A stretch of DNA of 43,082 bases, taken from NCBI GenBank assembly GCA_002938195.1, contig PTKX01000007.1, positions 1 through 43,082 on the forward strand, written 5' to 3'. Positions 14,354-22,369 of the stretch are shown piece by piece. The notes beneath the pieces are model-generated. The model did not search any database. It was not told the origin of the DNA and worked only from the letters and a program-made list of their open reading frames with translations. This DNA comes from Alphaproteobacteria bacterium MarineAlpha5_Bin7 (GTDB lineage: Bacteria > Pseudomonadota > Alphaproteobacteria > HIMB59 > GCA-002718135). Position 1 is the stretch's first letter; every line of letters starts with the position of its first letter. Made by a program: the position numbers and the translations under genes.

Positions 14354-15235
14354 TTATATTTTTAATTCTGAACATAAAAATGTAGGAAATATTCCCAAAT
14401 TTTTTATTTGATTTTTTTTAGACTCCCATACAGGTCTATTCTTAGTAAAACTTGATTTATGGATACCGGATGTAATTAAAAGGCTATCAATATTAAATGA
14501 ATATGCGCCTTGGATATCATGAAAAATAGAATCTCCTATCGCAAGTATTTTTTCCTTATTTATTTTATTAATTTTCTTTGTAGCTTCTTTATATATTTCT
14601 AGACTAGGTTTTCCTAAAATAAAAACCTCACCTCCCAAATCCTTATAAAGCTTTGCTATGGTTCCCATGCATATAGATAATTTATTAGATTTATTTTCTA
14701 TAGTTTCATAATCAGGGTTAGCACATACGAAGGGCATTTTTCTATTCTTTGCTTCGATTAATAATGGCAAATAATCAATAGTATTGAAAGAATTAATAGG
14801 AGTGCACCCTAAAATAAAATCAGCATCTTCAATTTTATTTACAAAATTATAACCATCTAATCCACTAACGAATTTTGCACCTTCTTTATTGCTATTGTCA
14901 TGTATATGAAAACAGTTTTTCTTTAATCTTTTAGTAATATTATAATTTTTTTTTTTTAAACTTTGCCATATCATCTCACCACTTGTCATCACTTCATCAA
15001 AACAAGCAGGATTAAAACCTAGTTTAGGGAGTCTTGTAACAGTTTCTTTTTTTCTTTTAGAAGAATTTGAAATAATAATAATTTTTTTGTTCATTTTAAA
15101 TAATTCATTTACAAATTTTTGAGCATTAGTGTAACCTTGTTTTCCATCATGCATAACCCCCCATTGGTCAAGAATGTAAAGATCATAAGAATCAATAATT
15201 TTAGAAAGTCCTGTAATGCTTTTACATTTTTTCAT
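14354..15235 (-). CDS. HAD-superfamily class IIA hydrolase (TIGR01459-like)
   Basis: A 293-aa HAD phosphatase of the NagD-like class IIA. Motif I is YILDQWGVMHDG, in which the catalytic aspartate is followed by QWGV as in the alphaproteobacterial TIGR01459 group. IIISNSSKRK is motif II, and the C-terminal GDSIFHDIQGA is the acidic motif III/IV region, with ILGKPSLEIY before it. The cap domain lies between. Substrate is unknown; the fold dephosphorylates small metabolites. It overlaps pyrD by four bases and shares its operon, but that does not prove a pyrimidine role. Confidence 0.87.
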   Translation of the reverse strand: MKKCKSITGLSKIIDSYDLYILDQWGVMHDGKQGYTNAQKFVNELFKMNKKIIIISNSSKRKKETVTRLPKLGFNPACFDEVMTSGEMIWQSLKKKNYNITKRLKKNCFHIHDNSNKEGAKFVSGLDGYNFVNKIEDADFILGCTPINSFNTIDYLPLLIEAKNRKMPFVCANPDYETIENKSNKLSICMGTIAKLYKDLGGEVFILGKPSLEIYKEATKKINKINKEKILAIGDSIFHDIQGAYSFNIDSLLITSGIHKSSFTKNRPVWESKKNQIKNLGIFPTFLCSELKI

Positions 15236-16287
15236 ACATCCTTACCTATTGCCTCTTTAATATTTTTGAAACCATCAGTTTTTAAGCAAAAAATTAATTC
15301 TCGCTTAATATGATTTATCAATTTTGGCCCCTTAAAAACTAAAGCTGTATACAATTGTACCAACGAAGCTCCTGATTTAATTTTTTGATAACAATCTTCT
15401 CCATTACTAATGCCCCCTACTCCTATAATCGGAATACTGCCATTTGTTAATGCGTATATTTTCTTTAGAACTCTTGTTGATTTTTTGAATAAAGGTTTTC
15501 CACTTAATCCTCCAGAAAGATTTTTTGCTTTTGACATTAAAGAGTTTGGTCGATCTATGGTCGTATTACTGATTATCAAGCCCTCAATCCCATTAGCAAG
15601 ACTTATCAATGCAATATCTCTTAATTGTTGATCATCCAAATCTGGTGAAATTTTTAATAATAATGGTTTGCTTTTTAACTCAGTATTTGTTTCTTTTCTA
15701 TTTTGAAGATTTTTAATTAATTTTTCTAAATTTTTTCTATTTTGAAGATCCCTTAATCCAGGGGTATTGGGTGAAGAAACATTGATTGTTGTATAATGAG
15801 CCAATTTTCCCAGATCTTCAAAACACAAACAATAATCATCTATAGCATTTTTGGTATTTAAATTTTTTCCTATGTTTATTCCCACAACACCATTCGATAA
15901 ATTATTTAAATTTAGCCTAGATAGTTTAGCTTTTACATATTCAACACCTCTATTATTGAAACCCAAATGATTGATAACCGCCTGCTCTTCAAATAATCTA
16001 AAAATTCTTGGCTTTTTGTTGCCAATTTGAGGTAAGGGGGTAACAGTACCTATTTCAACAAAACCAAATCCTAGACTTAATAGAGGAGATACAACTTCTG
16101 CATTTTTATCAAAACCTGCTGCTAAACCTATAGGATTATTAAAATCAAGTCCAAACAAATGTTGATGTAAAGAAACATGATCCTTTAAATTTTTAGTAAA
16201 AATATTTAATTTTAATAACTTTATTGTTAAGGAGTGAGATAATTCTGCTGGAAATAAACGGAGTATTTTGTATGAATTTTCAATCAT
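15232..16287 (-). CDS. pyrD: Dihydroorotate dehydrogenase (quinone), class 2
   Basis: PyrD oxidises dihydroorotate to orotate with FMN and passes electrons to ubiquinone at the inner membrane. The 351-aa length and an N-terminal helical extension before HLFGLDFNNPIGLAAGFDKNAEV indicate class 2. Other blocks are GTVTPLPQIGNKKPRIFRL, VNVSSPNTPGLR (with the class 2 catalytic serine), PLLLKISPDL, ISNTT and the phosphate-binding GVGGISNGEDCYQKIKSGASLVQLYT. It lies 14 bases after lysS and overlaps the HAD gene. Confidence 0.96.
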   Translation of the reverse strand: MIENSYKILRLFPAELSHSLTIKLLKLNIFTKNLKDHVSLHQHLFGLDFNNPIGLAAGFDKNAEVVSPLLSLGFGFVEIGTVTPLPQIGNKKPRIFRLFEEQAVINHLGFNNRGVEYVKAKLSRLNLNNLSNGVVGINIGKNLNTKNAIDDYCLCFEDLGKLAHYTTINVSSPNTPGLRDLQNRKNLEKLIKNLQNRKETNTELKSKPLLLKISPDLDDQQLRDIALISLANGIEGLIISNTTIDRPNSLMSKAKNLSGGLSGKPLFKKSTRVLKKIYALTNGSIPIIGVGGISNGEDCYQKIKSGASLVQLYTALVFKGPKLINHIKRELIFCLKTDGFKNIKEAIGKDV

Positions 16288-16301: not shown

Positions 16302-17885
16302 TTATTCTCTTAAAATTTTCTCTATTAAATTACATGTTTTTTTTATTCCATACAATTTAATGAAAGAGCCTAATCTTGGACCTTGTTTTTGACCAAGTAA
16401 AACCTGATAAATTAATTTAAAATAATCTCTCAAATTAGAAAAATTATATTTTTTCCCAATCTCATAAATTAGAGTTTGAATTTCTTCTGAAGAAACATTT
16501 TGATTAATATTTTTTAATGTATTAAGTATATCTTCAAAAATTTTCTTATTTTCCGAGTCAATCTTTATATATTCTTTATTTGGAAGAACAAAATCAACAT
16601 AATAATTTATTGCAAATTGTATCAATTTATCTATTTCAAAATTCTTAGTAATATCTAGTGTATTGTCATATTCTTTTAGAAACCCCCAAATTACTTCTTT
16701 ATCTTGAGAATTACATACACTAACTAAATTAAGTAAAGAATTAAAATTAATTTCTGAAGTATATTTAGGAGGTTGGCCTTGGTGAATATGCCATACAGGA
16801 TTATCTAATTTATTTAAATTTTGTTCATGATAAGACTTTAAAAAAGAAAAGTATTCATCAACACTTTTTGGAATAGAATCAAAATATAATTTTTTGGCAG
16901 ATTTTGGTTTTTGAAACATAAAAAGTGATAAACTTTCTTGTGATGCATAACGTAACCATTGATCAACACTAATACCATTTCCTATTGATTTTGATATTTT
17001 TTCACCTTTTTCATCCAAAAACATTTCATAAATTAAATTAATAGGTGGTTCTTTTTTTAGAATTTTACAAATTTTTGAAGCCAAATCAACACTTTCTGTT
17101 AAATCCTTTCCGCACATCTCATAATTTACATCAAGAGCTATCCATCTCATTGCCCAATCAACTTTCCATTGTAATTTGCAATTCCCTTTCGTTACTTCTA
17201 ATTCTGTTTGTTTATTATTTGCAGGATCCACAAATATTATCGAATTAGATTTTGGTCGATATTCATCAATTTTCACTTGTAATACATGTCCATTTACAGG
17301 ACTTATTGGAAGAAAGGGGCTATAAGTTTTTTGTCTTTCAGCTCTAAGGGTAGGAAGAATAATTGATAAAATTTTATCATAATTTTGTAATATATTAATT
17401 AAAGTTTTATCAAAGTATCCAGATTTATACTTTTCAGTTGAACTAATAAATTCATATTTAAATCCAAATTGCTCTAAAAAGAATTTTAATTTTTCGTTAT
17501 TATGGTGTCCAAAACTTTCGTATTTTTCAAATGGATCAGGAATTGAAGTTAAAGGCTTTCCTATAAAACTTTTTAATAATTCCTGATTTGGTACATTTTC
17601 TGGAACTTTTCTCAATCCATCCATATCATCAGAAAAAGTGACTAATTTTGTTTGACAATCAACAATGTTTTCAAAGGCATTTTTTACCATTGTGGTTCTT
17701 ACTACTTCGGCAAAAGTACCTATGTGTGGTAATCCAGATGGACCATAGCCTGTTTCAAATAAAATAAAATTTTTATCTGGTTTTTTAAAATTTTTTATTC
17801 CTCCAAATCTTTCTATAATTCTTCCTGCCTCTAAAAAAGGCCAAGATTTTAAGGATTCATATATTTCTTTAGAAATAATTTTCAT
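16302..17885 (-). CDS. lysS: Lysyl-tRNA synthetase, class I
   Basis: This 527-aa enzyme charges tRNA-Lys with lysine. It is the class I form, typical of archaea and alphaproteobacteria, rather than the class II LysS of most bacteria. The HIGH-type motif is HIGT at residues 54-57 in GYGPSGLPHIGTFAE, and the KMSKS-type motif is KISKS in GEKISKSIGNG near residue 296. MDGLRKVPEN and GKDLTESVDLA are further family blocks. Its start overlaps the stop of a MarR-family gene by four bases, so it is almost certainly co-transcribed from the promoter-operator described at 18344. Confidence 0.95.
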   Translation of the reverse strand: MKIISKEIYESLKSWPFLEAGRIIERFGGIKNFKKPDKNFILFETGYGPSGLPHIGTFAEVVRTTMVKNAFENIVDCQTKLVTFSDDMDGLRKVPENVPNQELLKSFIGKPLTSIPDPFEKYESFGHHNNEKLKFFLEQFGFKYEFISSTEKYKSGYFDKTLINILQNYDKILSIILPTLRAERQKTYSPFLPISPVNGHVLQVKIDEYRPKSNSIIFVDPANNKQTELEVTKGNCKLQWKVDWAMRWIALDVNYEMCGKDLTESVDLASKICKILKKEPPINLIYEMFLDEKGEKISKSIGNGISVDQWLRYASQESLSLFMFQKPKSAKKLYFDSIPKSVDEYFSFLKSYHEQNLNKLDNPVWHIHQGQPPKYTSEINFNSLLNLVSVCNSQDKEVIWGFLKEYDNTLDITKNFEIDKLIQFAINYYVDFVLPNKEYIKIDSENKKIFEDILNTLKNINQNVSSEEIQTLIYEIGKKYNFSNLRDYFKLIYQVLLGQKQGPRLGSFIKLYGIKKTCNLIEKILRE

Positions 17886-18343
17886 AATATTTTATCAGCC
17901 TTTATCCTTAAACTTTTACCTAATAAAAGTTTTAATATATTCTTAAAGTAATTTGTTTCTTGTTGTAGTTTATCAAAAATTCTAGATTCTTCTTTTGTTA
18001 TAATTGGGTTGATTTCATCGTATAAATTATAGCCAAGAGATAGCATTTTAATTATTTTTTTTCTATTATCATCTTCAATGGTTCTAGTAATCAATTTTTT
18101 TTTTTCTAATAATTTAAAAGTAACGCTAGAAACAGAAATATCAATTCCTGAAAAAATTGAAATCTCTATTTGATATAATTTATTTTTATTTTTAGAAAGG
18201 CTTTGAATTGATTCTATTATAAGATATTCATTTAAAGTTAAATTATAATTCTTTAATATTTTTCTTAGCTGAGATTGCCAGTAATTAGAAACTTGCCAAA
18301 TTAATAAACCAATTTTTTTCTCTGATAGAGAAGTGTCTGCCAT
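17882..18343 (-). CDS. MarR-family transcriptional regulator
   Basis: A 153-aa winged-helix regulator. After an N-terminal dimerisation helix come LTLNEYLIIESI, a helix-turn-helix over GIDISVSSVTFKLLEKKKLITR, and the wing DDNRKKIIKML, the classic MarR D-x-R-x-K wing. The track ORF starts at 18391, but that version would translate straight through a 37-base palindrome. The ATG at 18343 (MADTSLSEKK) sits directly against the palindrome and matches family length. It overlaps lysS by four bases. Ligand unknown; self-repression is inferred from the adjacent operator. Because lysS follows, it probably also sets lysyl-tRNA synthetase levels. Confidence 0.9.
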   Translation of the reverse strand: MADTSLSEKKIGLLIWQVSNYWQSQLRKILKNYNLTLNEYLIIESIQSLSKNKNKLYQIEISIFSGIDISVSSVTFKLLEKKKLITRTIEDDNRKKIIKMLSLGYNLYDEINPIITKEESRIFDKLQQETNYFKNILKLLLGKSLRIKADKIL

Positions 18344-18380
18344 AATTATTTGTATACAAACAATTTGTATACAAATAATT
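18344..18380 (-). promoter_or_regulatory. Perfect 17-bp inverted repeat: likely MarR operator
   Basis: Two copies of the self-complementary 12-mer TTTGTATACAAA (18349-18360 and 18364-18375) are separated by three bases. The outer flanks also match, making a 37-base structure with 17-base arms (AATTATTTGTATACAAA) around a CAA centre. It abuts the MarR start codon. Spaced palindromes of this kind are typical dimer operators; the 15-base spacing puts the two sites about one and a half turns apart. I noticed no other copy of the 12-mer in the window. Confidence 0.8.
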
Positions 18381-18391
18381 AAAAAAGTCAA
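18364..18391 (-). promoter_or_regulatory. Candidate promoter for marR-lysS
   Basis: On the minus strand a TTGACT -35 box (18386-18391) is followed after 16 bases by TACAAA (18364-18369), a weak -10 match lying inside the first operator half. A start site here would give a leader of roughly 14 bases, mostly operator. A bound repressor would cover the -10 and start site. Confidence 0.5.
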
Positions 18392-18393
18392 TA

Positions 18394-18705
18394 TTATTCT
18401 GGAGCTAAAGTCATTTTAATTCCGTCTAATTTCTCCTCATATTCTATCTGGCAACTAAGTCTTGAATAATTATTTACACTAAAAGCTTGGTCTAACATTG
18501 ATTCTTCATCATCCTGCATAGATTTTAACAAACTGAATGAATCTTTATCTAAGTAAACATGGCATGTAGCGCATGCACAACATCCTCCACATGCTGCTTC
18601 TATATCTAATCCCGCATCTCTAATAATTTCCATTATTGTAAGGCCGCTCTGTGCATTCAATTTATGTTCTTTGCCTTCCCTATCAAGAACAATGATACTT
18701 CCCAT
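18394..18705 (-). CDS. [2Fe-2S] ferredoxin, adrenodoxin type
   Basis: A 103-aa vertebrate/adrenodoxin-type ferredoxin that carries single electrons. The cluster cysteines fit C39-x5-C45-x2-C48 with the fourth at C85 (RLSCQI); two extra cysteines (42 and 43) lie in the loop CGGCCACATC. Its start overlaps the stop of the ferredoxin reductase by one base, so they form a redox pair. In many bacteria this ferredoxin serves iron-sulfur assembly or heme/quinone hydroxylation. Its downstream end is followed by the marR promoter. Confidence 0.93.
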   Translation of the reverse strand: MGSIIVLDREGKEHKLNAQSGLTIMEIIRDAGLDIEAACGGCCACATCHVYLDKDSFSLLKSMQDDEESMLDQAFSVNNYSRLSCQIEYEEKLDGIKMTLAPE

Positions 18706-20924: not shown

Positions 20925-21611
20925 ATGTATATCAAAATAATAATTTTTATATCTACAATTATATTTTGCTTCAGCGTTTATTCATTTCCCATACCTAAGA
21001 ACAATGAAGTTGAATATGATATAATAAGAAAAAATAAAGTCATTGGAAGTCATAAAATTAAATTTGAAAATAATGAAGAAGGTTTAATTGTAGAAACAAA
21101 TATTAATATAATTGTAAAAGTTTTATTAATAACAGCTTACAAATTTTCTCACACTTCTGAAGAATTATGGATAGATGGAAATTTTATAAAGATTAATGCG
21201 CATACAGATTTTGAAGATGAGAGAGAATATTTTATTAAAGGTGAAGAAAAGAAAGAATTTTTCACTGCCTCTGGTATGGATGGTGAATTAGAAATAAAGA
21301 AAAATATTTTACCTTCAAATTTTTGGAATATCAAAATTTTAGAAGAAGAAGAATTATTTGATACCCAAAAAGGTATAGTAAGAAAAATCAATGTTAAAAA
21401 ATTAGGATTAGAAGAAATAGAAATTGGTGGTATGAATTATAATTGTAAAAAATTTACATTTAATGCATCAAATCATCCAAAGGATAAAGGTCCCTTTCCC
21501 GAATATACCTTGTGGTATTCAGAAAATGATGAATTAATGAAATTTAAATTTACTAATTGGAAAGATAATAAAGTTGTAACTCTTATCAGAAAGATAATAA
21601 CAGAAAATTGA
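20925..21611 (+). CDS. Exported DUF6134 family protein
   Basis: A 228-aa protein with a Sec signal peptide (MYIKIIIFISTIIFCFSVYS). The mature part is rich in beta strands and follows the DUF6134 pattern: VEYDIIRKNKVIGSHKIKF, VKVLLITAYKFSHTSEELW, LPSNFWN near the middle, and YTLWYSENDELMKFKF near the end, the last resembling lipoprotein-like barrel or LolA-like periplasmic folds. Function unknown. It sits 93 bases after heme A synthase and immediately before an SDR gene whose start overlaps its stop. Confidence 0.75.
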   Translation: MYIKIIIFISTIIFCFSVYSFPIPKNNEVEYDIIRKNKVIGSHKIKFENNEEGLIVETNINIIVKVLLITAYKFSHTSEELWIDGNFIKINAHTDFEDEREYFIKGEEKKEFFTASGMDGELEIKKNILPSNFWNIKILEEEELFDTQKGIVRKINVKKLGLEEIEIGGMNYNCKKFTFNASNHPKDKGPFPEYTLWYSENDELMKFKFTNWKDNKVVTLIRKIITEN

Positions 21612-22369
21612 AAACTATTTGGATCACAGGAGGGTCATCAGGTATAGGCTTTGCTTCAGCAAAAAAATTTCTTGATGAAAATTGGAGGGTAATAATAAGC
21701 TCTAAAAATAATGAAAGATTAGAAAAAGCTAAAAGTTTATTAATTAAAGAATCAAAAAATAAAGAAATATATGCAATTAAATGCGATATTATAAACAAAA
21801 AAGAAGTAGAAAATTCCATAAAAAAAATAATAAATGAAATTAGCAATATTGATATTGCCTTACTAAATGCAGCTGCTTATTCCCCAAACAAATCTCAAGA
21901 ATTTAATATAGAAAATTATGAATTACTAATTGATGTTAATTTAAAAGGCACACTATATTGTATAGATATATTGAAAGAATATATGACTAAAAATAATGGA
22001 GGTCACATTGCTTTGGTTTCTTCTCCCGTTGGTTATAGAGGATTACCTACTGCTGGTGCATATGGTTTGACTAAAGCGGGTTTAATAAATCTTGCTGAAA
22101 GTCTTTTTTTTGACTTTAAAAAATTAAAAATTAAGATCAGCGTCATTAATCCAGGATTTATTCAAACAAATTCTACTAATTTAAATGCTTTTCCAATGCC
22201 TTTCATTAAATCGGCTGAATTCGCTGCTAATAAAATTTATTTAGGTCTAGTTAAATCTTATAAATTTGAAATTATTTTTCCAAAATTTTTTTTGTTTATA
22301 TTAAAAATTGGAAGAATTTTACCATATAAATTGTATTTTTACTTAGTGAGTAAAATAACAAAGCTTTAG
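21608..22369 (+). CDS. Short-chain dehydrogenase/reductase
   Basis: A 253-aa classical SDR. The cofactor motif is TGGSSGIGFAS at the very N-terminus, LNAAAY corresponds to NNAG, the catalytic serine lies in ALVSSPVG, and AYGLTKAG supplies Tyr-x-x-x-Lys. The C-terminal about 50 residues are hydrophobic (FLFILKIGRILPYKLYFYLVS), suggesting membrane association. The only start that keeps the motif is a TTG at 21608, which overlaps the preceding TGA stop as TTGA; this implies coupled translation. Substrate unknown. Confidence 0.9.
   Translation: MKTIWITGGSSGIGFASAKKFLDENWRVIISSKNNERLEKAKSLLIKESKNKEIYAIKCDIINKKEVENSIKKIINEISNIDIALLNAAAYSPNKSQEFNIENYELLIDVNLKGTLYCIDILKEYMTKNNGGHIALVSSPVGYRGLPTAGAYGLTKAGLINLAESLFFDFKKLKIKISVINPGFIQTNSTNLNAFPMPFIKSAEFAANKIYLGLVKSYKFEIIFPKFFLFILKIGRILPYKLYFYLVSKITKL

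Follow-up and report, generated by a model that had tools for sequence, protein, structure and literature searches.

A twin palindromic site at the marR-lysS promoter of SAR11-type bacteria as a putative autoregulatory operator

Described regulators of related kinds

The autorepressing proteins MarR, MexR, MepR and SlyA control efflux or stress and virulence genes. Like the regulator considered here, they combine a MarR winged-helix fold with a palindromic operator over the promoter of their own operon, but the gene predicted to be co-transcribed in the present case encodes a lysyl-tRNA synthetase, and pyrD follows it. In Escherichia coli, lysU is a second, class II copy of the lysyl-tRNA synthetase gene. 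Its transcription is repressed by the DNA-binding protein Lrp, and until a 2015 study, lysU was the sole aminoacyl-tRNA synthetase gene of E. coli with a recognised regulator, Lrp (PMC5320599). The likeness lies in a DNA-binding protein acting over a lysyl-tRNA synthetase gene, as we infer for the locus described below, although Lrp acts globally and comes from a different family, whereas here a dedicated MarR protein from the same operon would act on the gene for a class I enzyme. Operators of the QacR type (TetR family) consist of overlapping or adjacent dyads and take up two dimers, one on either side of the DNA (PMC6018408). The fold of QacR differs, and occupancy by two dimers is suggested in our case by a 15-bp spacing alone.

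SAR11 bacteria are described as carrying few transcriptional regulators, supposedly kept for responses to major stressors (PMC13198564). We found no relevant paper linking SAR11, MarR and lysS, and a literature search by 10-mer gave, among the matches listed, papers unrelated by title. The parts of the locus are of known kinds, and what appears unusual is their combination: a dedicated MarR protein that seems to share an operon with the sole full-length lysS of a streamlined genome, an arrangement kept across a whole family.

The twin site and its operon

The window, by which we mean the entire 43,082-nt stretch of DNA analysed, contains a 37-bp inverted repeat, AATTATTTGTATACAAA-CAA-TTTGTATACAAATAATT (18344-18380), with 17-base perfect arms and a 3-base centre. 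Inside it are two copies of the 12-mer TTTGTATACAAA, spaced 15 bp centre to centre with 3 bp between them, just as a preliminary description of this DNA had reported. The promoter-proximal copy (18364..18375) is the first predicted operator half and the start-codon-proximal copy (18349..18360) the second, and the marR ATG, at 18343 on the minus strand, abuts the palindrome arm with a gap of zero. Under a first-order Markov model, chance would supply 0.018 copies of the 12-mer in the window and 0.5 in the genome, and about 2e-7 tandem pairs at 15 bp per genome. A search of the organism's own genome, which had been proposed as a check, returned three exact copies, namely the two upstream of marR and one within the mutM reading frame, with the tandem occurring once only. 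Matches with up to two mismatches numbered 40, against 43 for a reversed control pattern. A genome-wide regulon of the 12-mer was rejected on these grounds, as near-matches do not exceed the reversed control and the lone third copy sits in the mutM frame.

A scan of public genomes yielded 80 further loci of SAR11 type, from records titled Pelagibacteraceae, Pelagibacterales, or mostly uncultured Alphaproteobacteria/Proteobacteria, giving 81 loci with the window included. Just upstream of the twin site, on the minus strand, is a -35 element, TTGACT (18386..18391), which in relatives is of the TTGACA/TTTACA type. The candidate -10, either TATACA (18371-18366) or TACAAA (18369-18364), falls inside the promoter-proximal 12-mer, leaving a spacer of 16 nt between TTGACT and TACAAA in the window. 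When the -35 of each relative is taken as the best match searched for, a TTGACA-like hexamer stands 14-15 nt before TATACA, equivalent to 16-17 nt before TACAAA, in 81/81 loci. The earlier placement of the -35 just upstream and of the best -10 within the first half-site is confirmed, and the dyads together with the promoter-like arrangement, present in every locus, point to the operator architecture over a promoter that had been proposed. The candidate -10 is weak, matching four of six consensus positions, and a generic promoter scan did not list the twin-site promoter because its -10 rule demands a T at position 6.

The gene that begins at the palindrome, marR (17882..18343, minus strand), encodes a MarR-fold winged-helix regulator of 153 aa, and its stop overlaps by 4 bases the ATG of lysS (16302..17885, minus strand), a class I lysyl-tRNA synthetase gene (NF001968, 788.4 bits against a cut-off of 648; PF01921). 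Among the 80 loci with both genes inside the fetched stretch, marR and lysS overlap or lie no more than 7 nt apart in 79, which upholds the view that the site is coupled to a marR-lysS operon, and full-length lysS occurs once per genome in the genomes listed. Two further genes on the same strand are probable operon members: pyrD, for a quinone-dependent dihydroorotate dehydrogenase (15232..16287, minus strand; NF003645, 459 bits against a cut-off of 366), and a gene for an HAD-IIA hydrolase (14354..15235, minus strand; TIGR01459), which overlaps or abuts pyrD. Their inclusion, raised earlier as a possibility, is likely given the short spacings in relatives, which run from -26 to +24 nt for lysS to pyrD and from -4 to +2 nt for pyrD to HAD. 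Upstream lie a 2Fe-2S ferredoxin gene, fdx (18394..18705, minus strand), with its stop codon 50 bp ahead of the marR ATG, and, on the same strand, fnr, a gene for a thioredoxin-reductase-like flavoprotein. No terminator was found between fdx and marR. Elsewhere in the window, short minus-strand ORFs at 21149-21846 overlap plus-strand genes and are probably not genes.

An AlphaFold2 model of the regulator (pLDDT 81) has a helix at residues 4-31, a winged helix-turn-helix and a helix at 102-140, and this model and Foldseek agree on a MarR winged-helix fold flanked by helices at both termini. The best Foldseek matches were MarR, MepR, NadR and SarZ structures (about E 1e-6), and profile matches were to SlyA/MepR at about 1e-10. 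Against PF01047, the window protein on its own reaches 18.8 bits, under the gathering score of 24.6, and all 14 aligned family members match this profile at E<=0.01 (best 1.7e-8). Cysteine is absent from the window protein, and a thiol switch is thus unlikely for it. The family also commonly carries another MarR-like protein, about 163 aa long and only distantly related to the first (E about 1e-4 to 1e-3); it is found at G000:C9:20284-20556, and in the relative G006 it adjoins a response regulator gene.

With a palindromic operator-like site at the gene's own promoter in 81/81 loci, the twin 12-mer is in our judgement quite likely the autoregulatory operator of the adjacent MarR protein, which would repress marR-lysS-pyrD-HAD until a ligand intervenes. 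Two MarR dimers, one per 12-bp dyad, may bind there; the dyads are about 1.4 helical turns apart, or some 154 degrees round the helix, which would set the dimers near opposite faces. Once bound, they would cover the -10 and the likely start of the marR-lysS-pyrD-HAD promoter, so that marR would be repressed and lysS with it, and a ligand would then loosen the repressor. The twin-site promoter would be the main source of lysS mRNA. The MarR protein might alternatively be an activator or a dual regulator rather than a plain repressor, but the overlap of the site with the -10 and start favours repression over activation. The position of lysS behind this regulator and twin site, which 80 related genomes keep at identical spacing, suggests that a signal tunes this essential protein-synthesis gene, normally regarded as housekeeping.

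Conservation and phylogenetic distribution

The two 12-mers are exactly 15 bp apart in 81/81 loci, with 0-3 mismatches over their 24 positions, and the second lies -1 to 5 nt from the marR ATG. The 17-base arms of the window are not shared by these relatives, in which the 12-mers and their 15-bp spacing alone are conserved. The earlier proposal of a 37-bp palindrome as operator is thus kept as to an operator-like site and revised as to its extent: the long arms are specific to the window genome, and the conserved unit is two 12-bp dyads. The MarR proteins of the related loci are 44-67% identical to that of the window, and therefore the conservation of the site is not a matter of mere recency.

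Of 40 relatives, 23 have the marR protein; these all belong to the family of the window and none to the sister family, and a marR profile run over 150 genomes of the order gave the same split, with no sister-family match. In seven sister-family loci there is neither marR nor tandem, and lysS overlaps or abuts fdx, behind a divergent ctaA; three of these loci, followed further, have pyrD, HAD and rpmB after lysS. As the sister family has the fdx-lysS-pyrD-HAD block, marR with its promoter and operator sits inside an otherwise shared gene order. The joint conservation of palindrome and marR-lysS pair, which the preliminary description had named as a check, takes this form: the twin 12-mers and marR are kept in all 80 related loci, nearly all with lysS directly behind marR, and both marR and the site are absent from the seven sister-family loci read. 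If a dedicated repressor, as we take it to be, is kept with lysS throughout a family, it seems that even SAR11 cells benefit from regulating how much of a core translation enzyme is supplied.

Beyond the family, a search of 190 genomes of the class recovered a MarR relative at E 2.5e-27 in another order, whose gene is immediately preceded by two copies of TTTGTATATAAA at a 15-bp spacing. The window MarR protein, searched against that alphaproteobacterial order, found relatives in nine genomes at 21-26% identity. In six of the nine, two GTATAC-like dyads, some of them diverged, could be read by eye 15 bp apart upstream of marR, and several of these tandems lie within larger inverted repeats. 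In these same six, marR follows groEL, and lysS is unseen or lies beyond an opposite-strand gene. The tandem pattern itself matched in five of the 190 class genomes, three times beside this MarR lineage: two matches are in the window's family, one is in the groEL-linked order, and two elsewhere look like chance (a control pattern matched once). For more distant MarR relatives in other families, several of which adjoin an SRPBCC gene, the stretch fetched contained no lysS, and no tandem of this type was seen upstream. Since the same tandem precedes the other-order relatives, the operator seems to be a property of the MarR lineage and the lysS link a property of the SAR11 family. On present sequence comparisons, the twin site most probably began as the operator through which this MarR lineage regulates itself, with lysS being wired to it in SAR11.

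The same comparison lends something to an alternative that we nonetheless consider unlikely, in which the operator serves the regulator alone, lysS-pyrD-HAD owe their expression mainly to fnr-fdx readthrough or to an internal marR promoter, and lysS is a neighbour by accident. The other order has the same MarR lineage and tandem with no operon with lysS, and the stretch ahead of marR, in which no terminator was found, could let fnr-fdx transcripts feed lysS. Towards its 3' end, marR also shows some synonymous conservation in several clades, with TTC at codon 133 and TTG at codons 139 and 141. An internal promoter might look like this, but the signal is missing from the window's own clade. The overlap or near-contact of marR and lysS in 79/80 loci speaks against incidental adjacency, as do the loci in which the upstream genes have changed. 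Three loci are without both fnr and fdx and three more without fdx, and all six keep the operator-marR-lysS unit. In those without both genes, marR is the first gene and points away from a divergent ctaA, at a distance of 116-123 bp in two cases, so lysS there must depend on the twin-site promoter or on one inside marR. An autoregulatory operator that also governs lysS therefore remains our preferred reading.

The 3' signal at codons 133, 139 and 141 belongs to a run near TTCAnnAATTC...TTGTTATTGGGTAAAAAAATTAG that precedes the lysS start within marR in several clades (in part of L043, L045, L047 and L049-L060) and is possibly an internal promoter.

Frozen first codons and other readings of the site

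Two features fall outside the earlier description of this DNA: the insertion of marR within the shared fdx-lysS-pyrD-HAD block, given above, and a set of frozen codons at the start of marR. The first bases of the gene, ATGGCAGACACTTCTCTnnnnGAGAA (18318..18343, minus strand), are synonymously constrained according to both codon counts and a synonymous test, and within codons 2-8 (GGCAGACACTTCTCTnnnnGAG), codons 2-6 and 8 hardly vary at synonymous positions across the 81 loci. Codons were counted over 21 representatives sharing less than 85% identity. GAC encodes Asp3 in 19/21 (background 12%), Glu8 is GAG in 20/20 (background 17%) and Ser5 is TCT in 21/21, while Leu6 is always CTN and never TTA or TTG, the codons of 66% of leucines. 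When five neighbouring genes are compared with marR, no conserved column is as constrained as its Glu8 and Asp3; columns in that comparison carry an offset of 16, owing to an open frame that begins earlier. Within the stretch GGCAGACACTTCTCTnnnnGAGAA there is also an inverted repeat, TTCTC-N5-GAGAA (18332-18318, minus strand), whose arms are pairable in 80/81 loci, in two of them through a G-U pair. The fixed place of the element relative to the ATG is uninformative because indels in a reading frame are disfavoured anyway.

The frozen codons are likely a second cis element, to judge from these codon patterns; a protein might bind it as DNA, or it could serve as a target in RNA or as a signal in translation. 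No further copy occurs elsewhere in the organism's own genome, and a regulon of the element was rejected for that reason; nor is the element visible in the MarR relatives of the other order. We also considered and dropped a tRNA-like mimicry of the TTCTC-N5-GAGAA hairpin directed at a synthetase, as its loop is variable. A broader model, which we offer as a tentative and rather doubtful one, would have the SAR11 family place lysyl-tRNA synthetase and pyrimidine synthesis under a MarR repressor that is dedicated to them and senses a ligand, and would add a previously undescribed cis element in the first nine codons, the two layers jointly setting LysRS supply. If true, MarR control of lysS with a second layer would stand out in a lineage believed to have lost the majority of its transcription factors.

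The frozen synonymous sites also count towards a reading in which the palindromes act as RNA: translation of marR and lysS would be controlled by a hairpin or attenuator in the leader, possibly with help from the frozen codons. RNA folding does pair the second 12-mer with the start region, and the TTCTC/GAGAA helix forms. Yet compensatory changes were seen at 0/22 predicted pairs, the covariation term was unfavourable (+0.47), and the folds were little more stable than shuffled sequences (z +0.08 to -1.65). At one proposed pair the C is kept though its partner is A in 9/81 loci, and Rfam gave two chance-level matches only. The first 12-mer, moreover, holds the candidate -10 and would thus be untranscribed from the twin-site promoter. 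Leader hairpins, for all that folds exist, were rejected for lack of compensatory change, and we regard control at the RNA level as very improbable next to a DNA operator.

Slightly less probable again is that some other regulator, with targets throughout the genome, uses the site and that marR is merely one member of its regulon: TTGTATACAA-like palindromes are a common type for other regulator families, but the tandem is single in the genome, the third 12-mer lies in the mutM frame, near-matches stand at 40 against 43 for the control, and the site tracks marR, even into another order.
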